A stretch of DNA of 23,893 bases from a virus. The position numbers and the translations under genes were made by a program. Shown here piece by piece: positions 2,982-22,597 of this stretch. The DNA lies in IMG/VR virus record IMGVR_UViG_3300031784_000198, positions 1 through 23,893 of that record. The stretch is one strand, 5' to 3'. Each line of letters starts with the position of its first letter. The stretch's first letter is position 1. Below the pieces are notes generated by a model that did no database searches, was not told the origin of the DNA, and saw nothing but the letters and a program-made list of their open reading frames with translations.

Positions 2982-3674
2982 ATGATCGATATTAACAACA
3001 CCCTAGACCTCGTCAAACTTAAATTCTATAATGAATGGCTATATACAGCACACATTTATGATGAGGGTGAATCTACGTTCCATAAACAACTAACAACTAA
3101 AGTTGTAATCGATTATATAGATCCAATTAAATTAAAAAAAGATGCACTTATTTTAGACTTAGGTTGTGGTCCGGGTTATTTCTTAGATGAAATGAAAGAA
3201 AGAGGGTACACTAACTTAGTCGGTGTAACTCTTAGTCCAAATGACATTGACCTATGTAAGAGTAAAGGGCATAAAGTTAAAGAATACGATTTAAGCTTCT
3301 TACCACAGAAAGAAGGGTATTATGACGAATCGGTTGATTTTATCTTTTTGCGACATGCATTAGAACATAGTCCATATCCTATCTTTAGTTTAATGGAATA
3401 TAATCGTATATTAAAACAAGGTAGTAAGATTTATATTGAAGTGCCCGCCCCTGATCAGGAACGTAAGCATGAATATAACTTAAATCATTATAGTATTTTA
3501 GGTACTGCACAGCTAGCGGCATTACTTGAAAGAACTGGATTTACTATTGATACGTTTAATACAATGGATTTTACGTTAAATGTTGGTAAAAACGATGAAG
3601 ATGAAGATATTGAAATTTCAGAAAGATATTTCTGTATTGTAGCTACAAAGCAACGTCCGCTGGATATTAAGTAA
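2982..3674 (+). CDS. Class I SAM-dependent methyltransferase
   Basis: A 230-residue protein with a Rossmann methyltransferase core: motif I LDLGCGPGYF at about 59-67 for S-adenosylmethionine binding, GVTLSPNDIDLC at 81-92 with the acidic residue following strand 2, DESVDFIFLRHALEH at about 115-129 (motif IV region), and LKQGSKIYIEVP after it. The pattern is that of the Methyltransf_11/23 type, which acts on small molecules, sugars or proteins; no DNA-methylase catalytic motif (DPPY or PC) is present. It sits alone between structural-type small genes. Substrate cannot be predicted; modification of a virion or host surface component is possible. A CAGGA ribosome-binding site lies 5 nt before the start. 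Confidence 0.8.
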   Translation: MIDINNTLDLVKLKFYNEWLYTAHIYDEGESTFHKQLTTKVVIDYIDPIKLKKDALILDLGCGPGYFLDEMKERGYTNLVGVTLSPNDIDLCKSKGHKVKEYDLSFLPQKEGYYDESVDFIFLRHALEHSPYPIFSLMEYNRILKQGSKIYIEVPAPDQERKHEYNLNHYSILGTAQLAALLERTGFTIDTFNTMDFTLNVGKNDEDEDIEISERYFCIVATKQRPLDIK

Positions 3675-3692
3675 AATTCTACTAAATATATC

Positions 3693-3971
3693 ATGACCTT
3701 TGATATATGGAAACAATCTAAAATACAAAATGGTCTTGAAAATATCAAGACCGTTTCCTTACCCGCTGTTGCCTCTGACAATATTGATGAGATGAAACGT
3801 TTAGCAGGGATACCCTCTACTCAATCCGATGTAGGAATGAACATGAGTGTAACTGGCACCCAAAAGGGCGAATTAATGAAGAAGAATAACATTCAGCCGG
3901 GAACACCTGAATGGTTCAAGTTATGGTTTAGTTTACCATATATGACTGGCGAAAAGCCTATAGGAAAATAA
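3693..3971 (+). CDS. Conserved small phage protein, unknown
   Basis: A 92-residue protein with no recognised catalytic domain. It contains a DEMKRLAGIP segment near residue 31 and a C-terminal aromatic motif PGTPEWFKLWFSLPYMTGEKP, a pattern seen in small proteins next to packaging and structural genes of T4-like aquatic phages. It ends 1 nt before the next gene, with AGGAAAA serving as the next ribosome-binding site inside its 3' end. A weak late-like box (CTAAATAT) lies 4 nt before its ATG. The role is unknown; its location directly upstream of the ubiquitin-like protein and the terminase suggests virion assembly. Confidence 0.5.
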   Translation: MTFDIWKQSKIQNGLENIKTVSLPAVASDNIDEMKRLAGIPSTQSDVGMNMSVTGTQKGELMKKNNIQPGTPEWFKLWFSLPYMTGEKPIGK

Positions 3972-3972
3972 C

Positions 3973-4401
3973 ATGGCCACTATAAACATAACGGTACAGA
4001 GTTTGCTCAATGCCGCACAATATGATAGTTATGCAGTAGATAATGCAGGAACTATCGGTGAACTTAAAAATTCTATTGATGCTACTACAGGTTGCTTAAT
4101 AGGTTGGTTTGATTTAGTATTCAATAATGAAGTATTAGATACCGCACAAACAATCAGTTCTTACGGTATAGTAGAAGGTTCAAGATTAAGAACTCATAAT
4201 AAAATTTCACGATTATCTACACTACAAGATAGACAAGTTGCAAAACTTAGTTTGGCACAATTAGAAAGACTAGACCTTTCAAATACTAGACCATACTATA
4301 ATATAGATGAACTGCCTACCAAATATAGTGGTAACAGTGTTGTAGATAATTCTCATCCTACTGGATTGATTGAAGGTCGTCCGTGGAATAGCACTCCATA
4401 G
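3973..4401 (+). CDS. Protein with ubiquitin-like beta-grasp N-terminal domain
   Basis: A 142-residue protein. Residues 1-78 follow the ubiquitin pattern: an N-terminal beta hairpin (ATINITVQS), the helix entry TIGELKNSIDATTG (compare ubiquitin TIENVKAKIQDKEG), FDLVFNNEVLD (compare RLIFAGKQLED), ISSYGIVEGSRLRT (compare LSDYNIQKESTLHL). There is no C-terminal di-glycine at the end of the domain; the chain continues into a helix (RQVAKLSLAQLERLD) and a proline-rich tail (HPTGLIEGRPW). Conjugation is therefore unlikely, and a protein-interaction or assembly role next to the terminase is more plausible. The fold call is by eye from spacing and hydrophobic pattern. Confidence 0.6.
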   Translation: MATINITVQSLLNAAQYDSYAVDNAGTIGELKNSIDATTGCLIGWFDLVFNNEVLDTAQTISSYGIVEGSRLRTHNKISRLSTLQDRQVAKLSLAQLERLDLSNTRPYYNIDELPTKYSGNSVVDNSHPTGLIEGRPWNSTP

Positions 4402-4427
4402 TAAATTCTATATCGTAACCAAAATTT

Positions 4428-4435
4428 TATAAATA
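4428..4435 (+). promoter_or_regulatory. T4 late promoter box (TATAAATA) of the terminase gene
   Basis: A perfect TATAAATA, 6 nt before the terminase ATG. In T4 this octamer sits at about -13 to -6, so +1 would fall on or next to the A of the ATG. No Shine-Dalgarno sequence lies between them, which implies a leaderless late transcript. Confidence 0.7.
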
Positions 4436-4441
4436 CGCAAT

Positions 4442-5989
4442 ATGAGCGGAACCCCTACCTTAATCAAAACACCTTATACAAAGACAAAGTTTAATTCTGA
4501 TAAAGAGCTAGAAGATTTTGTTAAATGTTGTGATCCTGAAATGGGTTATCTATACTTTATGGATAACTTTTTTTACATACAACATCCTACAAAGGGTTCT
4601 ATGCTGTATCACCCCTGGGATTATCAAAAACGGTTAATACATACATATCATACCTATCGCTATTCAATTAGCTTGATGCCACGACAAACAGGTAAGTCAA
4701 CATCAGCCGCAGGGTATCTACTTTGGTATGCTATGTTTGTACCGGATAGTACTATTCTTATTGCGGCACACAAATACACAGGTGCACAAGAGATTATGCA
4801 ACGTATTCGTTATGCGTATGAGAACTGTCCCGATCACATTAAAGCAGGTGTAACAACATACAACAAAGGCTCACTAGACTTTGAGAACGGATCACGTATT
4901 GTTAGTGCTACAACTACAGAAAATACAGGTCGCGGTATGTCTATTACACTATTATACTTGGATGAGTTTGCGTTTGTTCGACCTACAATTGCTACAGAAT
5001 TCTGGACATCTATTACTCCTACATTAGCAACAGGTGGTAAAGCGATTATCACTAGTACTCCTAATAGTGATGAGGATCAATTTGCTTTGATTTGGAAGGG
5101 TGCTAATAAAACAGAAGATGAGTTTGGTGATACCACCGAGCTCGGTGTTAACGGTTTTAAATCATACAGAGCATTCTGGCAAGAGCATCCTGATCGTAAT
5201 CAAGAATGGGCTGACCAGATGAAGGCTCAGTTAGGTGAAGACAGATTTAGACGAGAGATTGGTTGCGAGTTCATTATTGCAGATGAGACATTAATTGCCC
5301 CTACTAGGTTAATTGATTTAGATGGTATCGAACCTGTATTCCGTCAGGGACAGATACGTTGGTATAAGAAACCTGAAAAGGGGAATATCTATATAGTTGC
5401 ACTAGATCCTGCTGTCGGTACAGGTGGTGACAATGCCGCAATACAGATTTATGAAGCAAATACTACGACACAAATCGGTGAATGGAAACATAATAGAACA
5501 GATATACCGTCACAAATTAAACTGATAGCACAGATTAACAAATACATTGTTGAATGTACTACTCAACCAGACAATTTATACTATAGTGTAGAAGTCAACG
5601 GAGTAGGCGAGGCCGCCCTAGTATCATTGAACGAATATGGTCTAGCTAACATACCTGGATCTTTCTTAAGCGAGCCGGGCAAAAAGAAACGAGGGTTCAA
5701 TACAACTAATAAGAGTAAACTAGCAGCCTGTTCTAAGTTTAAAACATTAGTTGAGAGTAATAAGTTGACTATTAACAGTCGTAGTTTGGTAACAGAACTT
5801 AAAAGTTTTGTAGCCTCAGGTGGTAGTTATGCCGCAAAAATAGGTGAATCAGACGATTTGGTAACGTCTTCATTGTTAGTTGTGCGTATGTTACAGAACT
5901 TAAGCGAATATAACTATGATTTAGATAACTATATTCGTGACCATGATGAAGTAATTATGCCCTTACCTTTCTATGCCATAATGGGATAA
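4442..5989 (+). CDS. 17: Large terminase subunit (gp17-like ATPase/nuclease)
   Basis: A 515-residue DNA packaging motor protein. The N-terminal ATPase has a Walker A variant (MPRQTGKST, about 79-87, as in T4 gp17), Walker B with catalytic Glu (LLYLDEF, 170-176) and the coupling motif TSTPN (204-208). The C-terminal RNase-H-like nuclease has VALDPAVGTGGD (Asp322), the acidic VEVNGVGE (Glu384 region) and ESDDLVTSS (Asp471/472), the three metal-binding acids used to cut concatemeric DNA. It is somewhat shorter than T4 gp17 (about 610) but the core is complete. It would dock on the portal and translocate DNA into the prohead. It has its own late-type promoter; no small terminase subunit gene is recognised upstream. 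Confidence 0.95.
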   Translation: MSGTPTLIKTPYTKTKFNSDKELEDFVKCCDPEMGYLYFMDNFFYIQHPTKGSMLYHPWDYQKRLIHTYHTYRYSISLMPRQTGKSTSAAGYLLWYAMFVPDSTILIAAHKYTGAQEIMQRIRYAYENCPDHIKAGVTTYNKGSLDFENGSRIVSATTTENTGRGMSITLLYLDEFAFVRPTIATEFWTSITPTLATGGKAIITSTPNSDEDQFALIWKGANKTEDEFGDTTELGVNGFKSYRAFWQEHPDRNQEWADQMKAQLGEDRFRREIGCEFIIADETLIAPTRLIDLDGIEPVFRQGQIRWYKKPEKGNIYIVALDPAVGTGGDNAAIQIYEANTTTQIGEWKHNRTDIPSQIKLIAQINKYIVECTTQPDNLYYSVEVNGVGEAALVSLNEYGLANIPGSFLSEPGKKKRGFNTTNKSKLAACSKFKTLVESNKLTINSRSLVTELKSFVASGGSYAAKIGESDDLVTSSLLVVRMLQNLSEYNYDLDNYIRDHDEVIMPLPFYAIMG

Positions 5990-10316: not shown

Positions 10317-11390
10317 TTGGTAAAACCATTCGATGTTAGTAAATTTAGAAAAGATATAACAAAAAGTATTGAAGGATTAAGTATTGGATTCAACGACCCA
10401 ACTGACTGGATTAGCACAGGAAATTACGCACTTAACTATCTTATTAGTGGTGATTTTAACAAAGGGGTTCCTTTGGGCAAGGTTACTGTATTTGCTGGTG
10501 AAAGCGGTGCAGGCAAGTCCTTTATTTGCTCCGGGAACCTTATACGACACGCACAACAACAAGGAATCTTTGTTGTTCTCATTGATTCGGAGAATGCGTT
10601 AGACGAAGCATGGTTACACGCATTAGAGGTATCTACTGCTGAAGATAAGTTATTAAAACTCAACATGGCAATGATTGATGATGTGGGTAAGACTATTTCA
10701 ACATTCGTTAAAGACTATAAAAATTTATCAGAGGCTGATAGACCAAAAGTCTTGTTTGTACTTGATTCATTGGGAATGTTGTTGACCCCCACAGACGTAA
10801 ATCAGTTTGAAGCAGGTGATATGAAAGGTGACATGGGTCGTAAGCCTAAAGCACTAACAGCACTTGTTCGTAACTGTGTTAATATGTTTGGTTCATTGAA
10901 CATTGGCTTAGTTGCTACTAATCACACATATGCTAGTCAAGATATGTTTGATCCAGATGATAAAATCTCAGGTGGTCAAGGTTTTGTTTACGCATCAAGT
11001 ATCGTTGTTGCTATGAAGAAACTTAAACTTAAAGAAGATGAAGATGGTAATAAGATTAGTGATGTGCGAGGTATTCGTGCGGCATGTAAGATTATGAAAA
11101 CTCGCTATGCGAAACCATTTGAATCAGTGCAAGTTAAGATTCCATATGAAACAGGTATGAGCCCTTACTCAGGCTTATTAGATATGATTGAGAAGGCTGA
11201 ACTTGTTAAGAAAGAAGGTAACAGTCTTGTGTATACGACACTTGATGGTGAAATCATTAAGAAGTTTCGTAAAGCATGGGAAGCAAATACTGATGGTTGC
11301 TTAGATAAAGTAATGAATGAGTATAGTCAAAAATCAACGTCAACGTCAAAGATAAGTAATGTACAACCTGAGGAGGAGGGTACAGAATGA
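10317..11390 (+). CDS. uvsX: UvsX RecA-like recombinase
   Basis: A 357-residue RecA/UvsX family strand-exchange ATPase. The N-terminal part has the conserved WISTGNYALNYLISGDFNKGVPLGKV, then Walker A GESGAGKS (61-68), LIDSENALDEAWL with the catalytic Glu, and Walker B KVLFVLDSLGML (Asp150). DNA-loop regions follow: FEAGDMKGDMGRKPKALTALVR (L1) and the NHTYASQDMFDPDDKISGGQGF region (L2), with the Tyr/Gly features typical of UvsX. The C-terminus ends in an acidic QPEEEGTE tail. It forms filaments on gp32-coated single strands with UvsY as mediator, and both partners are encoded here. It overlaps the next gene by 4 nt, where its 3' end supplies an AGGAGGAGG ribosome-binding site. Confidence 0.95.
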   Translation: MVKPFDVSKFRKDITKSIEGLSIGFNDPTDWISTGNYALNYLISGDFNKGVPLGKVTVFAGESGAGKSFICSGNLIRHAQQQGIFVVLIDSENALDEAWLHALEVSTAEDKLLKLNMAMIDDVGKTISTFVKDYKNLSEADRPKVLFVLDSLGMLLTPTDVNQFEAGDMKGDMGRKPKALTALVRNCVNMFGSLNIGLVATNHTYASQDMFDPDDKISGGQGFVYASSIVVAMKKLKLKEDEDGNKISDVRGIRAACKIMKTRYAKPFESVQVKIPYETGMSPYSGLLDMIEKAELVKKEGNSLVYTTLDGEIIKKFRKAWEANTDGCLDKVMNEYSQKSTSTSKISNVQPEEEGTE

Positions 11391-11638
11391 GTTTAGATTT
11401 TGTTGCTGAAGTTTGGGATGCACTACGTTCACATATTGATTTTAATGAACGTAGTGATGCCGCAGACACATTAATCAATTTATTGATTGATAACAACTAC
11501 GAAGCTGACGATATCAAAAGTGCGTTCAGAGGTGACAAGGAGATGCTAGGTGCATTGAAAGGTTACGCTGAACAACATGATATTGAGGAAGACTACGAAG
11601 AATTTGAAGAAGATGAAGACCAAGACGAAGATTGGTAA
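11387..11638 (+). CDS. Small protein with extremely acidic tail, unknown
   Basis: An 83-residue protein between uvsX and uvsY. Residues 1-65 form a predicted helical domain (FVAEVWDALRSHIDFNERSDAADTLINLLIDNNYEADDIKSAF), and the last 20 residues are almost all Asp/Glu with a final DEDW. Its ATG overlaps the uvsX stop and has a very strong ribosome-binding site (11371-11379), so it is probably made in large amounts. Its place in the cassette suggests it modulates gp32/UvsX/UvsY; acidic tails of ssDNA-binding proteins often recruit partners or mimic DNA. No homologue is named with confidence. Confidence 0.55.
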   Translation: MSLDFVAEVWDALRSHIDFNERSDAADTLINLLIDNNYEADDIKSAFRGDKEMLGALKGYAEQHDIEEDYEEFEEDEDQDEDW

Positions 11639-15073: not shown

Positions 15074-16075
15074 ATGTCAAAAGTGAAACCTACTACAAAA
15101 GAACAACTGATACATTATCTATTGCATAATGTTAGTTTAGGTTCCTATGACAATCGATTCTTATCTAACATTGAAATTAATTTCATAGGTGCCGGCAAAC
15201 CTGTAACTACTAATCAAGCAGAGTTATTGAATAAGATAACAATTAGATATGCTAGACAATTAGCCAAACAAGAACTAGATGCTAATATGTTAGTAAACCT
15301 TTCATGGAAAAAGGAACCTATTAATAGTTCACCTGAATATACTACAGCATATGCACAATTAGATAATGGTAAGATAGTCATACGTACTCCCTATAAAACA
15401 AACTTTATCAAAGAACTTAGAAACATTAATACCAGTGATTGGGATAAAGATAAACGAGAGTGGACTGTAAACTATAATGAACCCAATTTGAAAAAAATAG
15501 TAACACTCATTGCAGATAACTATAAGCTAATTAATTTCTGTGATGACATTAAACACATGTTAATTGTGGCTGAACAGTTTGAACATATTAAAGTATGGAA
15601 TCCTACATTATGTGAAGTGTCCGGTAATTTGTTAATTGCTGGTATAAACGAATACTTACATGAATCAATTATAGACATTCCATTAGAAAAGACGCCTTTA
15701 TGCTTTTCTAAGTTAGCTACGTATGGTGTAGAAATAGATAAATCATTATACATAGATGATGTATTAAAGTTTGCCGCTAATACACGTCCCGAAATAGAAA
15801 AATCTCAATTAACAGACCTAGTAGAACTACTACCATTGATTGGTTGTGAAGCTGTAGTGTTATCCGTAACACATAGTTTTTCTAGCTTATTGATGGATTT
15901 GGTTATAGGATTAAAAGAAAAGAATATAGAGATAGTTACAAAAAGTAATGTGAGTAATAACACATTAAAAAACTATGTAGTAATCTGCCCAGCACATACC
16001 ATCAATACTGCAATAGAAATAAGTGCAGACAAAGTGATACAAGTTGTAAATAGTACCCCGGTAACAATAAAATGA
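15074..16075 (+). CDS. HARP-like domain protein adjacent to UvsW
   Basis: A 333-residue protein of unknown role. Residues about 91-150 (TAYAQLDNGKIVIRTPYKTN, then FIKELRNINTSDWDKDKREWTV, then LKKIVTLIADNY) follow the HARP-domain pattern: a beta strand, a helix, W-D-x-x-x-x-x-W between two strands, and a closing helix. HARP domains in SMARCAL1-type annealing helicases recognise DNA junctions, and a similar fold has been reported for the N-terminus of T4 UvsW. The N-terminal 70 residues are helical, and the C-terminal 80 residues (CEAVVLSVTHSF ... YVVICPAHTINTA) look Rossmann-like. It overlaps uvsW by 4 nt, so the two proteins are probably made together and may act on the same branched DNA. It is predicted to be leaderless. 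Confidence 0.55.
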   Translation: MSKVKPTTKEQLIHYLLHNVSLGSYDNRFLSNIEINFIGAGKPVTTNQAELLNKITIRYARQLAKQELDANMLVNLSWKKEPINSSPEYTTAYAQLDNGKIVIRTPYKTNFIKELRNINTSDWDKDKREWTVNYNEPNLKKIVTLIADNYKLINFCDDIKHMLIVAEQFEHIKVWNPTLCEVSGNLLIAGINEYLHESIIDIPLEKTPLCFSKLATYGVEIDKSLYIDDVLKFAANTRPEIEKSQLTDLVELLPLIGCEAVVLSVTHSFSSLLMDLVIGLKEKNIEIVTKSNVSNNTLKNYVVICPAHTINTAIEISADKVIQVVNSTPVTIK

Positions 16076-17529
16076 AACAATGTAAAATAATTGTCAAAGA
16101 CGAAGTTAATGTAAAAATAGAAGGACTTGATTTATCGGAACGAAAAACTCTGATGAAGATGTTTGAATATGAAATACCCGGAGCAAGGTATCTACCTGCA
16201 GTCAGACTAGGTAGATGGAATGGTAAGGTTAGTTACTTCAGTTTAGCCGGAAGTACATACATTAACCTGTTACCAGAAATATTACCAGTACTGGATCGTA
16301 TTGGATATGATATTGACTTAGAAGACCTAAGAGACTATACTACAACCTTTACTTTTGACAAAGTTTCAGAGGATACATTCAAACATAAGAACTGGCCTAA
16401 AGGTCATCCACAAGAAGGTAAGCCAGTAGTACTACGTGACTATCAAATTGAAATTGTTAATAACTTCCTAGAGAACCCACAGTCATTGCAAGAGATTGCT
16501 ACAGGTGCAGGTAAGACATTGATGACTGCCGCACTAAGCTATAGTATTGAGAAGTATGGACGTAGTATTGTTATCGTTCCAAACAAATCATTAGTAACAC
16601 AGACAGAGGCAGACTACATTAATCTAGGATTAGATGTTGGTGTATACTTTGGTGATCGTAAAGAATACAACAAGACACATACCATATGCACTTGGCAGAG
16701 TTTAAATAACATGCTTAAGAAAACAAAGAGTGGTGAAGCTGAAGTAGAGATCGGTGACTTCATTGAAGATGTAGTTTGTGTTATGGTCGATGAAGTTCAC
16801 ATGGCTAAAGCTGACGCACTCAAAACATTACTTACAAGTGTATTTGCTAAAGTGCCCATTCGTTGGGGCTTAACAGGAACTATCCCTAAAGCTAAGTTTG
16901 AAGCACAAAGTATCTTTGTTAGTTTGGGCAATGTGATTGGTAAACTATCAGCAAGTGAATTGCAAGATCAGGGTGTATTAGCACGTTGTCACGTTAATAT
17001 TATGCAATTACAAGATGGGAAAGAGTTTACTAACTATCAGAGTGAATTGAAACACTTACTAGAAGATAGTGAACGATTAGATAAGATTGCTAGTTTAATC
17101 AGTGGTATCAATAATACAGGCAATACATTGATCCTTGTTGATAGGGTTAATGCAGGAAAAGAGATTGTTAATAGATTACCCGGTAGTGTATTTGTTAGCG
17201 GTGCTACCAATATGAATGAAAGGAAAGAAGAATATGACGAAGTTGCAACCTCAAGTAATAAAATTATTGTGGCAACATATGGTGTGGCTGCTGTTGGTAT
17301 CAACATACCTAGGATTTTTAATCTGGTTCTCATTGAACCTGGAAAATCATTCGTCCGTGTTATCCAAAGCATCGGTCGAGGAATTCGTAAAGCAGAAGAT
17401 AAAGACCATGTACAAATCTACGACATAACCAGTAGTTGTAAGTTTGCTAAACGGCACTTGACCCAACGTAAGACTTTTTATAAAGAAGCTAATTACCCTT
17501 TCGACTTAGAAAAGTTGACATACAGATAA
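16072..17529 (+). CDS. uvsW: UvsW-type superfamily 2 helicase
   Basis: A 485-residue DNA/RNA-DNA helicase that in T4 unwinds R-loops and remodels recombination and stalled-fork junctions. The N-terminal substrate-recognition domain (about 1-100) includes LSERKTLMKMFEYEIPGARYLPAVRLGRWNG region features. Helicase motifs are complete: Q-like LRDYQ (121-125), Walker A ATGAGKT (143-149), motif Ia VPNKSLVTQ (169-177), DEVH (240-243), LTGT (about 267-270), and motif VI QSIGRGIRK near residue 445. The length is close to T4 UvsW (503). It overlaps the HARP-like gene by 4 nt. The promoter of the next gene is contained in its 3' end (17515-17543). Confidence 0.93.
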   Translation: MKQCKIIVKDEVNVKIEGLDLSERKTLMKMFEYEIPGARYLPAVRLGRWNGKVSYFSLAGSTYINLLPEILPVLDRIGYDIDLEDLRDYTTTFTFDKVSEDTFKHKNWPKGHPQEGKPVVLRDYQIEIVNNFLENPQSLQEIATGAGKTLMTAALSYSIEKYGRSIVIVPNKSLVTQTEADYINLGLDVGVYFGDRKEYNKTHTICTWQSLNNMLKKTKSGEAEVEIGDFIEDVVCVMVDEVHMAKADALKTLLTSVFAKVPIRWGLTGTIPKAKFEAQSIFVSLGNVIGKLSASELQDQGVLARCHVNIMQLQDGKEFTNYQSELKHLLEDSERLDKIASLISGINNTGNTLILVDRVNAGKEIVNRLPGSVFVSGATNMNERKEEYDEVATSSNKIIVATYGVAAVGINIPRIFNLVLIEPGKSFVRVIQSIGRGIRKAEDKDHVQIYDITSSCKFAKRHLTQRKTFYKEANYPFDLEKLTYR

Positions 17530-18698: not shown

Positions 18699-19377
18699 AT
18701 CGGTTAAGCACAGTTGTGAGTTTTGTAGCAGGGAGTTTATAAAAGAACGGACTCTGCTTACTCATATATGTGAGACTAAACATCGTTGGTTAGAAAAAGA
18801 CAAGCAAAGCAATCGTATTGCATATCAGTCCTTTGTACAGTTCTATACCAAACACACCGCAACTAAAAAGACAAAGACTCAGCTAGAGTTTATTAAGAGT
18901 CCATACTATATTGCATTTGCAAAGTTTGGAACATATTGTGTAGATACAAATTGCATCAACATCAGCAGGTATGTTGATTGGTTATTGCGAGACCAAATCA
19001 AGCTTGATAATTGGGCAACTGACACTAACTATACTAAATTTTTGCAAGAGTATGTTAGAGTTGAGGATGCGTATGATGCAATTACTCGTAGTGTTCAGTA
19101 TACAATTGAATTAGCACAAGCAGAACATATACTACCTCATGATATTCTAAGATATGGTAACGTAAATAAGATTTGTTATGCAATTACAACTGGTAAGATT
19201 AGTCCTTGGATGTTGTATCAGAGTGACAGTGGTGTACATTTCTTAGACACATTAAATTCGGATCATGTTAAAATGATTATTGATTATATTAATCCAGAAC
19301 AATGGACGTTAAAGTTTAGACGTGAGCCAGAACTTGTTACACAAATCAAGGAGTTATTGAATGCAGGCGGGTACTAG
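18658..19377 (+). CDS. C2H2 zinc-finger phage protein, unknown
   Basis: A 239-residue protein. Residues 20-42 form a classical single C2H2 finger, C-x2-C-x12-H-x5-H (Cys20, Cys23, His36, His42; CEFCSREF start). The remainder is helical with conserved-looking aromatic features (YQSFVQFYTKH, SPYYIAFAKFGTYC, ISRYVDWLLRDQIKLDNW, PWMLYQSDSG, YINPEQWTLKFRREPELV). The ATG lies 41 nt inside the 3' end of the preceding gene, an unusually long overlap, but no better start is visible. A DNA-binding or replication-associated role is likely from the finger and position; an exact function is not recognised. Its last codons contain the ribosome-binding site and start of the next small gene. Confidence 0.6.
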   Translation: MPTLKSTKEAEETKSVKHSCEFCSREFIKERTLLTHICETKHRWLEKDKQSNRIAYQSFVQFYTKHTATKKTKTQLEFIKSPYYIAFAKFGTYCVDTNCINISRYVDWLLRDQIKLDNWATDTNYTKFLQEYVRVEDAYDAITRSVQYTIELAQAEHILPHDILRYGNVNKICYAITTGKISPWMLYQSDSGVHFLDTLNSDHVKMIIDYINPEQWTLKFRREPELVTQIKELLNAGGY

Positions 19378-19558
19378 GGTTCGCATTCCATGGCAAACAA
19401 ATCATGACATTCCTACATGGAATCAAAAATGTGCATGGGCGGTAGAGACATTTGGTTTGCCCGGAGATAAGTTTGATACACATGCAACAGAAGATTATAT
19501 GGATTTTTACTTTAAGGATGAGCGTGATGCTATTCATTTTGAGTTAAGATGGGGATAA
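19361..19558 (+). CDS. Tiny FxLRW protein, copy 1 (type A)
   Basis: A 65-residue protein: MQAGTRVRIPWQTNHDIPTW, then KCAWAVETFGLPGDKF, then the C-terminal block DFYFKDERDAIHFELRWG. The AVETFG and F-x-L-R-W features recur in copy 3 (19775), and the C-terminal block recurs in all four tandem proteins. AAGGAG (19349-19354) lies 6 nt before the ATG, and the gene overlaps the previous stop by 17 nt. A small folded beta-alpha domain is likely. No known family is recognised. Confidence 0.65.
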   Translation: MQAGTRVRIPWQTNHDIPTWNQKCAWAVETFGLPGDKFDTHATEDYMDFYFKDERDAIHFELRWG

Positions 19559-19559
19559 T

Positions 19560-19775
19560 ATGGCTGATGTTATCCTATACATTACTGCTAAAAGAACTAT
19601 GGAAATAGGCCATGAGTTACGAAACATGGGTTGGATACAGGGTGTTGATTTTGATTATGCTTACTACCAAGAGAAGTATGACAACTTTAGCCATGACCCT
19701 ATTGTAAAACGACATGCAAGATTTACCTTTTACAATGATAGCAATGCTAGTTATTTTGCATTGAGGTGGACATAG
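19560..19775 (+). CDS. Tiny FxLRW protein, copy 2 (type B)
   Basis: A 71-residue protein: MADVILYITAKRTMEIGHELRNMGW, then a Tyr/Asp-rich middle, then RFTFYNDSNASYFALRWT. The start and the N-terminal third align with copy 4 (MAVIIKVYKPW ... LLIENVG), and the C-terminal block with all four proteins. It starts 1 nt after the previous stop with a GGGGAT site upstream, and its stop overlaps the next start by 1 nt. Function unknown. Confidence 0.62.
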   Translation: MADVILYITAKRTMEIGHELRNMGWIQGVDFDYAYYQEKYDNFSHDPIVKRHARFTFYNDSNASYFALRWT

Positions 19776-20038
19776 TGGAGTTAATATTAGAAGAAGGTTT
19801 GATATTTGGGTCAAAATATTATACTGCTTATCCTAGTTTTGATTGGGTATTAAATAATAAAAAGTCCAATCAATATTGGATACTAATGGAAGATTGGTGT
19901 ATTGACACCTTTGGTCGCAGTGGCACCGATAATATGCCCGGAGTATATACTCCTAACGCACGATGGTATATTAACAACAGCAAGTTTTGGTTTAAAGAAC
20001 AAAAAGATTTAGAATGGTTTCTACTAAAATGGCAGTGA
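19775..20038 (+). CDS. Tiny FxLRW protein, copy 3 (type A)
   Basis: An 87-residue protein starting with GTG at 19775, which overlaps the previous stop (TAGTG) and has TGAGGTGG about 6 nt upstream. A GTG at 19766 is also in frame but lies inside that ribosome-binding site. After MELILEEGLIFGSKYY comes YWILMEDWCIDTFGRSGTD (matching AVETFG of copy 1) and the C-terminal KFWFKEQKDLEWFLLKWQ, the most diverged F-x-L-(R/K)-W block of the set. Function unknown. Confidence 0.6.
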   Translation: MELILEEGLIFGSKYYTAYPSFDWVLNNKKSNQYWILMEDWCIDTFGRSGTDNMPGVYTPNARWYINNSKFWFKEQKDLEWFLLKWQ

Positions 20039-20250
20039 TCATAAAGGTTTACAAACCATGGGCATTAGTGTTACACTTACTGATAGAGAATGTAGGACCT
20101 ATGTTACATAGTAACCCTATAATCTTTTGGCATGGTAAAGGGTGGCATATGACATTTCATCCCGAGGTTGTTACTCAAGGTGAATCATATTGTAACATTC
20201 AATTTGATAGAGAAGCAGACGCAATATGGTTTTCATTACGATGGGTTTAG
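20029..20250 (+). CDS. Tiny FxLRW protein, copy 4 (type B)
   Basis: A 73-residue protein: MAVIIKVYKPWALVLHLLIENVG, then HSNPIIFWHGKGWHMTFHPEV, ending NIQFDREADAIWFSLRWV. The start at 20029 is chosen because MAVIIKV aligns with MADVILYI of copy 2; in-frame ATG 20014 and GTG 20035 are alternatives, and no strong ribosome-binding site decides. It overlaps copy 3 by 10 nt. Its stop is followed directly by the ROK kinase ATG. Function unknown. Confidence 0.58.
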   Translation: MAVIIKVYKPWALVLHLLIENVGPMLHSNPIIFWHGKGWHMTFHPEVVTQGESYCNIQFDREADAIWFSLRWV

Positions 20251-21111
20251 ATGATTATGAATAAGATTGGTGTTGATATTGGTAAAACAAAAATTGAGTG
20301 TTGTGTGTTATCAACTACAAATGAGGTATTGTTTAGAGAACGTCTTCCTACAGGTTCTGTATACGAAGAAATAGAAGTTCTTTATAATAAAGCTATACTG
20401 TATACTAATACAACAGAACATACATTGGGAGTATGTATGCCGGGATCCATAAGCAATAGAACCGGTTTAATGATAAATTCTAGCATAGGATTTTTAAACG
20501 ATACAGATTTTGTAGGTATGTTGGAAACTAGATTAAATCGTAAGATACAAATTGCCAACGATAGTCAATGTTTTGCTTTAGCAGAATCATTGTTAGGGGT
20601 AGGCAATGGATATAATACTGTATTCGGAATGATATTAGGTACGGGTGTGGGAGGCGGCATAGTGATTAATGGAATGCTACATAAAGGATTTCATAACATA
20701 AGTTGTGAATGGGGACATACAACATTAGACCCTAGTAACAATATAATGTGTCGTTGCGGTAGAATTGGATGTGTAGAAACTTGGTTAAGCGGATCAGGAA
20801 TTGACACATGGGCATACAATCTTACAAATAAAAAACTATCCACAAAAGAATATATGGAAATGACAGAGATACAAGAATGTTTTTTAAATAAGTTTGGGTT
20901 GGCAGTTTCTAATTTAGTTCAAGTATTAGACCCGGATTGTATTGTAATTGGCGGAGGAATCAGTAATAATGATATATTATTCACTCAAGGCATTGAATCT
21001 GTTAAAAAGAATATATTCAATGATGAATTCAACACACCTATATATAGAGCAAAATTAGGTGACAGTGCAGGTGTAATTGGAGCGGCATTATTATGGCAAA
21101 TGACATTATGA
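20251..21111 (+). CDS. ROK-family sugar kinase
   Basis: A 286-residue protein with all hallmarks of the ROK family (glucokinase, N-acetylglucosamine, N-acetylmannosamine or fructokinase types). Seen: the phosphate-binding DIGKTKIE at 9-16; PGSIS at 64-68; IANDSQCFALAE with the catalytic Asp104; GMILGTGVGGGIVING at 126-141 for ATP; the substrate Glu/His segment CEWGH at 152-156; the zinc motif CRCGRIGC at 167-174, with His156; and VIGGGIS near 237 in the adenosine region. All catalytic residues appear intact, so it should phosphorylate a hexose or amino sugar. A metabolic kinase is unusual among phage replication genes. It overlaps the next gene by 19 nt. The substrate cannot be told from sequence alone. 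Confidence 0.87.
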   Translation: MIMNKIGVDIGKTKIECCVLSTTNEVLFRERLPTGSVYEEIEVLYNKAILYTNTTEHTLGVCMPGSISNRTGLMINSSIGFLNDTDFVGMLETRLNRKIQIANDSQCFALAESLLGVGNGYNTVFGMILGTGVGGGIVINGMLHKGFHNISCEWGHTTLDPSNNIMCRCGRIGCVETWLSGSGIDTWAYNLTNKKLSTKEYMEMTEIQECFLNKFGLAVSNLVQVLDPDCIVIGGGISNNDILFTQGIESVKKNIFNDEFNTPIYRAKLGDSAGVIGAALLWQMTL

Positions 21112-21656
21112 TTGACATTGAAAGTTTAGATACAACACCTAACTGTGTTATCTTAACCATCGGTGCGGTACGATTCGATCCTAAAGGTAGTGGCGTAGTT
21201 GAACGATTAGAACTACGTCCTACAGTAGAGGATCAAACAGAAATATATAACAGGAGTATCAATGAAGATACATTACGATGGTGGAGTGAGCAGAGCCCTG
21301 AAGCACTTGAAGAAGCTATGGGAGACGGGGGACGTTTGCCATTTAGCGAGTGCATGGAGACTCTTTATAAGTTCTGTTGGAACCGTCGTGCTGTTTGGAG
21401 TAATGGTGCATCATTTGATTGTGTAGTTATGGAGTCTGCTTGGAGACAAACATCAGACAAACCTAATCCTATCCCCTGGCCTTTCTGGACAGTTAGAGAT
21501 ACACGTACATTATATGAAATTGCAGGTGTTAGTCTTAAAGACGGTGGGCATTCTACTAGTCACAAAGCAGTAGAAGATGCTGAACGTCAGGCTATTGTTG
21601 TACAAAAAGCGTATACTAAATTAATTAAAGCAGGCCTAGTTGCACCACCTAAATGA
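21093..21656 (+). CDS. dexA: DEDDh 3'-5' exonuclease (DexA/Rv2179c-like)
   Basis: A 187-residue exonuclease. The DEDDh acids are visible: Asp8 and Glu10 in IDIES, Asp109 in WSNGASFDC, and His157/Asp162 in HKAVEDAER. Family features include TIGAVRFDP, LRWWSEQSPEA (as in T4 DexA WWKNQSPEA), and the VRDTRTLYEIAG segment. The protein resembles T4 exonuclease A and Rv2179c-type exoribonucleases; DNA or RNA as substrate cannot be told. It overlaps the ROK gene by 19 nt and the mini-DnaE gene by 4 nt (ATGA), so the exonuclease and the DnaE-like protein are probably made in a coupled way, as an epsilon/alpha-like pair. Confidence 0.82.
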   Translation: MANDIMIDIESLDTTPNCVILTIGAVRFDPKGSGVVERLELRPTVEDQTEIYNRSINEDTLRWWSEQSPEALEEAMGDGGRLPFSECMETLYKFCWNRRAVWSNGASFDCVVMESAWRQTSDKPNPIPWPFWTVRDTRTLYEIAGVSLKDGGHSTSHKAVEDAERQAIVVQKAYTKLIKAGLVAPPK

Positions 21657-22258
21657 AATTTAATTCAGACATTGATATTGACTTTGGTGACCGAGATAAG
21701 ATATTAAGTCTTATCAAGCATACGCCTGCGGCAATGCGTAAGGTTAATCCTATTCGTAAACATGCAACAGGTGTTCACGTGACTAATATACCCTACGATG
21801 CTATCAATGATATGGCTAACATCGATTATTCTGAGGCAGAACAACGTGGATATCTCAAATTAGATATGTTAAATGTTTATGTTTATAACTATGTTAGAAG
21901 TGAAGAACATCTAAAGTGCTTAATGTGTGAACCTGATTGGGATAAGTTAAAGGATGCAAAGTTTGTAGAAAACTTGATTCACTTAAACAATCACTACAAT
22001 AGCATTAAGAAAATGAAAGAACCTATAGATAGCATCCCTAGACTAGCTATGTTCTTGTCTATCATTCGTCCTGCAAAGAAACACTTAATTGGTTTAACGT
22101 GGGCTGAAGTTGCAAAAACTGTATGGGATAAAGGCACTGATGGGTATAGTTTTAAGAAAAGTCACGCAATTGCATATGCTCATTTAGTTGTCGTACATAT
22201 GAATTTGATTGATGAATTAGGATATCCTCTTGACCAGGGTAATACTTTTACGCTTTGA
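21653..22258 (+). CDS. Miniature C-family DNA polymerase (DnaE)-like protein
   Basis: A 201-residue protein with the landmark motifs of the Pol III alpha palm and fingers in the right order: SDIDIDFGDRDKIL (compare PDFDVDF..RD, two catalytic Asp), IRKHATGVHVT (compare GKHAGGVVIAP), IDYSEAEQRGYLKLDMLNV (compare VEYAGLVKFDFLGL, third Asp at 71), RLAMFLSIIRPAKK (compare ALVALFRPGPL), and GYSFKKSHAIAYAHLVVVHMNL (compare [20 protein letters not shown]). The PHP, tau-binding, OB and most finger insertions are gone. A typical DnaE is about 1160 residues. The gene is intact and 4 nt from a DEDDh exonuclease gene. It could be a reduced polymerase, a DNA-binding remnant, or a decoy for host Pol III. 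The last 42 nt overlap the convergent minus-strand gene. Confidence 0.75.
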   Translation: MKFNSDIDIDFGDRDKILSLIKHTPAAMRKVNPIRKHATGVHVTNIPYDAINDMANIDYSEAEQRGYLKLDMLNVYVYNYVRSEEHLKCLMCEPDWDKLKDAKFVENLIHLNNHYNSIKKMKEPIDSIPRLAMFLSIIRPAKKHLIGLTWAEVAKTVWDKGTDGYSFKKSHAIAYAHLVVVHMNLIDELGYPLDQGNTFTL

Positions 22259-22597
22259 CTTACGTTTGCTTAGTTCTAACATACTACATATAGGACCGTG
22301 TAATATAGTCAGACTCTTATTGTTAAATGTTCTTAGATAGGGTTTAAAGATCATCCAATCTTCTTTTAAGAACATATTAATGGGCACTAATCTATTAGAT
22401 TCCCACCACCATATATCCCCTAGTTCTAAGAATTTTTCTCGTATTACTTGGTCTATAATAGATCCATAGTCGTAGATGGTAGTTACTACATCATCTCTAT
22501 TTTGAACTATGCCTACATAATCTTGGCCTGCGTATGAGCAGACCGTTATAAAGGGGTGGTTCTCGGTTAGTCGTTTGAAAAAGTCGTTATGAAGCAT
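22217..22597 (-). CDS. Conserved phage protein, unknown (minus strand)
   Basis: A 126-residue protein: MLHNDFFKRLTENHPFITV, YVGIVQNRDD, LELGDIWWWESNRLVPINMFLK (WWWESNR at 63-69) and a basic end SKRKSKRKSITLV. It belongs to a type of small protein widely seen in T4-like aquatic phages and without known function. It has its own late-type promoter box (22616-22623, minus) divergent from the virion gene at 22678, which suggests late expression. The 3' end overlaps antisense with the mini-DnaE gene for 42 nt. The basic tail suggests nucleic-acid contact, but that is only inferred. Confidence 0.7.
   Translation of the reverse strand: MLHNDFFKRLTENHPFITVCSYAGQDYVGIVQNRDDVVTTIYDYGSIIDQVIREKFLELGDIWWWESNRLVPINMFLKEDWMIFKPYLRTFNNKSLTILHGPICSMLELSKRKSKRKSITLVKRIS

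Follow-up and report, generated by a model that had tools for sequence, protein, structure and literature searches.

Introduction

Besides a family B polymerase, jumbo phages of group 2.2 encode a minimal form of the DNA polymerase III (Pol III) alpha subunit as two separate proteins, whose genes lie far apart (Iyer et al. 2021, PMC7824862). Based on genome comparison, Iyer et al. proposed that the two proteins likely reconstitute the enzyme (PMC7824862). A truncated alpha homologue of 172 residues was described in phage CBB (PMC5259590), and an alpha subunit, gp316, in phage Atu_ph07 (PMC6102473). Among the jumbo-phage papers compared, in the portions available, a split C-family polymerase is described only by Iyer et al., and the available text of that paper makes no link to DexA, DnaQ, DEDD, epsilon or another exonuclease (PMC7824862). 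The literature searched, which excluded most subscription journals and bioRxiv, contained no experimental test of a split polymerase.

The 23.9-kb virus record analysed here in full (the window) carries a 201-residue open reading frame that, going by the available part of PMC7824862, is a member of this already published type. As in the system of Iyer et al., a dNTP-binding N-terminal part and a metal- and template-binding C-terminal part are encoded by distant genes (PMC7824862, available part); the family B polymerase of that system has a counterpart in relatives of the window. Phage Atu_ph07, which is placed in group 2.2 in that part of PMC7824862, carries proteins of both phrog_11127 and phrog_11778, and we infer that these families are the N-terminal and the C-terminal protein of Iyer et al., respectively. 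Unlike the published examples, the copy in the window belongs to an uncultured phage and is coupled to an Rv2179c-like exonuclease, and the same pair of proteins also occurs in 141-kb phages below jumbo size. New in this work are the mapping of the two halves at the level of structure, the counts of their co-occurrence, the purifying selection on them, the two 141-kb phages, and a likely correction of the catalytic Asp triad. Coupling to the exonuclease was seen only in the window's closer relatives.

Results

Gene neighbourhood of the half-polymerase

The window contains a T4-like cluster of replication and recombination genes, whose members include a terminase large subunit, a single-strand binding protein, a UvsX-like recombinase and a DNA helicase. 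The genes at and around the half-polymerase are as follows.

16072..17529, plus strand: DNA helicase of the T4-like replication cluster, upstream of the exonuclease and the half-polymerase (phrog_16 DNA helicase, E 3.3e-74)
21093..21656, plus strand: DEDDh-type 3'-5' exonuclease, Rv2179c-like (PF16473, E 2.1e-33; phrog_255 exonuclease, E 6.1e-42)
21653..22258, plus strand: C-terminal half of a predicted split minimal Pol III alpha, 201 residues (phrog_11778, E 2.7e-57)
22217..22597, minus strand: convergent 126-residue protein, its 3' end overlapping that of the half-polymerase by 42 nt (phrog_11637, E 9.9e-30)

The positions and strands of the exonuclease and the DnaE-like frame, and the 4-nt ATGA overlap between them, agree with the first-pass annotation. 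The helicase is probably of the UvsW type by annotation of its relatives, one of which, in phage CBB, was named UvsW (PMC5259590); in GAP32 and Ettore, too, a helicase gene precedes the half-polymerase.

The most constant neighbour measured was the phrog_11637 gene, which is steadier than the exonuclease: of 142 loci, 139 have a match to it close to the half-polymerase, and in 138 the two genes converge. Its protein keeps an invariant WWWxxxRxxP segment (15/15 sequences), has no Pfam match, and gave nothing better than E 0.14 in a profile search of the PDB. It is a possible third component or regulator.

Two further observations concern the region upstream. A ROK-family sugar kinase-like protein (20251-21111, plus strand; PF00480, E 8.8e-60) overlaps the start of the exonuclease; only six of the first 81 loci, many of them short upstream, had this gene, and five of the six were of the window's own kind. 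Before it stand four tandem small frames of 65, 71, 90 and 78 residues (19361-20250, plus strand), all ending in F.L(R/K)W plus one residue. They have no PHROG match, five of their six pairwise scores exceed at least 99% of shuffles, and their sequences suggest that they are likely tandem paralogues.

Conserved residues of the C half

The 201-residue frame (C half) aligned with the phrog_11778 'DNA polymerase' profile over residues 3-188 (profile 5-193 of 197, E 2.7e-57), and no Pfam or NCBIfam model matched it at E<=1. All five Pol III alpha motifs read in the first-pass annotation are present in the right order. The frame starts at the DIDIDF strand, and the dNTP-binding GxGRGS segment is absent from it. 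Its recognizable features are the catalytic strand with D6, D8 and D10, H37-G40, the K69-x-D71 strand, R139-P140, and a finger helix with H171. In 89 aligned sequences, D6, D8, D10, H37, G40, K69, D71, R139, P140 and H171 were invariant. In this alignment (A1), which holds no isolates, the window sequence replaces L001, and 12 of the 101 distinct proteins were omitted as near-copies; a second set of 65 sequences, eight isolates included, agrees on these residues.

The catalytic aspartates of E. coli alpha are D401, D403 and D555, and D405 is conserved too (PMC3919608, available part). The first-pass annotation took Asp-8, Asp-10 and Asp-71 as the triad. These aspartates are indeed kept in the homologues, but the triad is more likely D6, D8 and D71; D10 would then correspond to D405, the additional conserved Asp. 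This register is supported by motif matching and by a weak profile alignment to M. tuberculosis 7pu7, and is shifted by two residues in the hhalign alignment to E. coli DnaE; all four aspartates are invariant whichever register holds. H171 of the finger helix falls at the position of E. coli H760, the presumed steric gate for dNTP choice (PMC8485763, available part), and its invariance argues for the use of dNTPs.

By a strict motif count, 94 of 111 C halves passed. We inspected 16 of the 17 failures, and the Asp motif and K-x-D were kept in all 16 and the finger His was seen in 14; of these 16, L188 ends at a contig edge, and L192 was missed by the pattern but is part of A1, in which the His is invariant. 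The 17th failure (L288) is a fragment of 20 residues. C-terminal tails, examined by eye for a clamp-binding peptide, were varied, with no shared motif evident.

A second gene encodes the dNTP-binding part

It had been noted that about 80% of a normal DnaE is missing. That figure leaves out a second piece, which has its own gene elsewhere. When 15 records with a C half were searched with PF07733, a different small protein was found in 14 of them, matching only profile positions 13-99 of 260; the sole record with no match is a 139-kb contig. This protein (N half) belongs to phrog_11127, also a 'DNA polymerase' family (10/10 tested). PF07733 was passed by 7 of 7 N halves tested, with no other Pfam match at E<=0.1. 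N halves are mostly about 165-190 residues long, and the two halves together make up about 374 residues. GxGRGS was kept in all 102 distinct N halves, a count from which 13 of 136 N rows had been removed because the choice of start gave a stub shorter than 100 residues. All 102 stop 33-35 residues past the first residue of GRGS. The usual ending is EFLK or a close variant, about 33 residues beyond GxGRGS, which is the point where DnaE runs on to ...PDFDVDF, the start of the window frame.

The N half is not within the 23.9-kb window. A 180-kb contig overlaps the window by 8.2 kb with 99.99% identity (one mismatch in 8,241 bases) and encodes, on its minus strand, an N half at 10993-11511 and, 42 kb away, a C half at 53102-53704. 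This identifies the partner gene in the phage population of the window itself. Where the spacing was measured (11 records), 11-224 kb separate the halves, and neither fused nor adjacent halves were seen within the available flanks of 148 C loci and 136 N loci. We considered whether the split arose through an intein or a recent break of the gene; both look unlikely, given the fixed end of the N half (102/102) and the distance between the halves.

With the dNTP-binding part of the palm on another chain, the 201-residue frame alone is unlikely to be the minimal polymerase that had been suggested, and we rejected a whole polymerase in one chain of this length.

Distribution and co-occurrence of the two halves

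A tblastn search with the C half found 65 phage records among 50,697. Without two Enterococcus records that matched only weakly (E 0.9 over 23% of the query), 63 GenBank records remain, some of which are RefSeq and GenBank copies of one phage. The carriers are mostly RaK2/121Q/GAP32-like jumbo phages and PA5oct-like phages; the others are Atu_ph07, Phosso, SCTP-2, XacN1, CM1/RAS14 and two 141-kb Alishewanella phages. In IMG/VR, C-half relatives are encoded in 323 stretches. Conservation of the frame in 63 phage records and 323 IMG/VR stretches is therefore far beyond chance. A scan of genome contigs found one full-length relative, on a 283-kb contig that is binned as 'uncultured bacterium' but is possibly phage DNA, and one 20-residue fragment. 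Two phage 'DNA polymerase' families, phrog_13169 (463 residues) and phrog_21652 (476 residues), gave weak matches to the halves: one matches the N half near the C-terminal end of the family, and the other matches the C half (E 0.012). Perhaps they are further split C-family polymerases.

The N half was found in 62 of the 63 GenBank records with a C half. In the first tblastn set, 59 of 60 C-half records were also among the 60 N-half records; the N matches had E 2e-5 or better except in CM1 and RAS14 (E 0.02), both confirmed by profile. Both halves are present in RAS14 and in both Alishewanella phages as well, which brings the total to 62. The one remaining record, 109 kb long and flagged as unverified, gave nothing in the N-half profile search. 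In the reverse direction, the C half was found in 9 of 15 N-half contigs and in 6 of the 6 that are at least 124 kb long; the six N-half contigs with no C half are fragments of 78-121 kb. We had considered the two Alishewanella phages, Slicko01 and Slickus01, as cases of the C half only, and rejected this when the profile search recovered their N half. These 141-kb, non-jumbo phages carry both halves (L292 7884-8495; L298 521-1033, minus strand), and the system is therefore not limited to genomes above 200 kb.

The co-occurrence also bears on the idea that the window protein, acting alone, is a regulator or a decoy that binds the clamp, epsilon or tau of host Pol III in place of alpha. Such a role would fit its resemblance to part of host alpha and its presence in phages that already have a family B polymerase, but it would not need invariant catalytic residues, and the N half accompanies the C half in 62 of 63 records. 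Furthermore, Pfam finds in it no PHP, HhH or OB part, through which alpha contacts its partners. The regulator and decoy ideas of the first-pass annotation thus gain no specific support, and we regard them as very improbable.

Purifying selection on both halves

Both halves are under purifying selection. The dN/dS of the C half was 0.015-0.122 in eight of nine pairs (the ninth was saturated), and that of the N half was 0.047-0.091 in five pairs; dS exceeded 1, which makes the estimate imprecise, in 4 of 13 C- and N-half pairs. A dN/dS of 0.015-0.122 indicates no decay. The small size of the frame, and the description of the N half of phage CBB as truncated (PMC5259590, available part), might suggest a decaying remnant of a captured host dnaE gene. 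The selection effectively refutes this, and active-site residues that are invariant in 89 sequences and a break point that is fixed in the N half also speak against it.

Structural comparison with C-family polymerases

The AlphaFold models of the C half and the N half had pLDDT of 90.2 and 87.1, respectively. A fold unrelated to the C-family palm had been named as the finding that would contradict the first-pass annotation; instead, the predicted fold of the C half matches the palm and part of the fingers of Pol III alpha. VIA-align placed the C half on PolC 3f2b 968-1310 (Z 10.1, 3.8 A, 196 of 201 residues), and also on 2hpi 458-851, M. tuberculosis 7pu7 417-821 and E. coli 2hqa 397-794. Its best 13 entries are Pol III alpha, PolC, or a 'DNA polymerase' with PolC-like or Pol III-like numbering, and the next unrelated row has Z 3.3. 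The N half, with its first 70 or so residues left out of the fold matches, was placed on PolC 3f2b 825-965, 2hpi 293-455, 7pu7 307-413 and E. coli 2hqa 278-393, and all 15 of its rows are the same C-family entries (Z 7.5-12.0). Structure 2hpi is the Thermus (Taq) polymerase. Since the N and C ranges adjoin on each structure, the break lies at the same loop in four polymerases.

In Foldseek, the top match of each half was Pol III alpha or a DNA polymerase related to it, at modest E of 1.8e-3 and 2.1e-2, with no match below E 0.001 for either. In hhalign against E. coli DnaE, the probability was 95.0 for the N half alone, 95.2 for the two halves joined and 0.4 for the C half alone; the value of the concatenate is carried by the N half. 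Phmmer with the C half against the PDB returned nothing at E<=10, and the C-half profile reached only E 0.021, with no single stretch passing alone.

In their fold and palm core, in the Asp triad, the K-x-D strand and the RP motif, and in a finger helix that carries the steric-gate His, the halves are like DnaE and PolC. Unlike these enzymes, the phage protein comprises about 374 residues in two chains, versus 1160 in one chain in E. coli. The distance D403-H511 is 108 residues in E. coli and 29 in the window frame (D8-H37), and R639-H760 is 121 residues in E. coli and 32 in the frame. From this motif spacing and the absent Pfam matches, most of the thumb, much of the fingers, and the PHP, HhH, OB and tau parts seem to be missing. 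With most of the thumb and these other parts apparently lost, a processive enzyme is doubtful.

A Pol beta-like palm is common to many nucleotidyltransferases that are not polymerases. The two halves might therefore make up an enzyme of this nucleotidyltransferase fold that has given up template copying and serves, for example, in end-tailing, priming or nucleotide sensing. The shortening of the C half by about 80 residues in the thumb (D403-H511) and about 90 in the fingers (R639-H760) would fit this view. We consider this unlikely, since the residue at the steric-gate position of E. coli H760, H171, is invariant and the closest folds are replicative DNA polymerases.

The neighbouring exonuclease and the family B polymerase

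The only Pfam match of the neighbouring exonuclease was PF16473, at both E<=0.1 and E<=1; no RNase_T/DnaQ model (PF00929) matched, and the only NCBIfam model was RNase_AS at E 0.044, under the cut-off. The protein belongs to the Rv2179c-like exonucleases (PF16473, phrog_255), a family that we liken to T4 DexA. We know of no tie between T4 DexA and any C-family half-polymerase.

With the window protein as tblastn query, 148 C-half loci were surveyed (113 distinct proteins, copies included). The exonuclease was upstream of the half-polymerase in 75, with the exact 4-nt overlap in 41, a distance of 11-100 nt in 2 and of 101-2000 nt in 32. It was not found in 61 loci with at least 2 kb of upstream sequence, and 12 further loci were too short upstream. 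The 61 include all eight isolate loci tested, which lack it within 6-8 kb upstream. An exonuclease of another family (PF00929) lies 4.4 kb upstream in GAP32 and 2.3 kb downstream in XacN1.

Co-occurrence with the exonuclease, a check proposed in the first-pass annotation, holds for about half of the loci and fails in 61 of 148. The 4-nt coupling is real in the window and its closer relatives, and the exonuclease is Rv2179c-like rather than DnaQ. The term 'Pol III-core-like pair' thus fits the gene order of the window's closer relatives rather than the core system. In the lineage of the window, the exonuclease and the half-polymerase are probably co-transcribed.

A family B polymerase had been expected alongside, and we found one in 11 of 15 records searched, including all eight GenBank phages; in all 11 it has its own exonuclease domain. 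None was found in the other four records, all of them IMG/VR contigs of 135-260 kb. PF00136 had no match in the 180-kb fragment that matches the window and was present in three contigs of relatives (G002, G003, G006). Slicko01, the Alishewanella phage tested, has a family B polymerase. In Ettore (88825-92602) and Slicko01 (3529-5033) this gene seems to be spread over more than one open frame, and the relative MIJ3 has been reported to have a split family B polymerase with an intein (PMC6892783, available part).

A polymerase-proofreader pair resembling the Pol III core, made of the frame and the overlapping exonuclease, would be compatible with a split polymerase. The exact overlap in 41 of 148 loci, the upstream exonuclease in 75, and the PF00929 exonuclease in the region of GAP32 and XacN1 speak for such a pair. 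We nevertheless hold it to be improbable: tblastn finds no such exonuclease in 61 loci that have 2 kb or more of upstream sequence, all eight isolate loci tested among them, the enzyme is not of the DnaQ type, and in 11 of 15 records the family B polymerase has an exonuclease domain of its own. In addition, epsilon is bound by the PHP region of alpha, and this region appears to be missing.

Discussion

Both halves are real proteins that occur together and evolve under purifying selection, and they fall on neighbouring stretches of one and the same domain. The window frame is probably the C-terminal half of a predicted two-chain minimal C-family (Pol III alpha-like) DNA polymerase. We propose that the halves would assemble non-covalently into one Pol beta-like palm with a single active site, in which GxGRGS of the N half would hold the triphosphate of the dNTP. 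The C half would supply the K-x-D strand, with D6, D8 and D71 holding two metal ions, and H171 would check the sugar. The pair may then polymerise DNA as an auxiliary enzyme, in gap filling, on the lagging strand or in repair, beside the family B replicase. Because most of the thumb is absent, the enzyme is probably distributive as well as auxiliary. In the lineage of the window, the probably co-transcribed exonuclease may help the polymerase, for example by trimming ends.

We lean, by a narrow measure, towards the fuller proposal that unlinked proteins, with neither intein nor fusion, assemble into a putative smallest C-family DNA polymerase (about 374 residues, with almost no thumb and no PHP) that shares the replication fork with a family B replicase and, in the window's relatives, has a dedicated exonuclease of the Rv2179c/DexA type. 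To our knowledge, no C-family DNA polymerase smaller than this is known.

The question is now reducible to two small proteins. Were the pair active, it would show how few parts a bacterial replicase needs, and two unrelated replicase families, B and C, would share one phage replication system. This would bear on the suggestion of Iyer et al. that minimal forms model ancestral Pol III (PMC7824862, available part).
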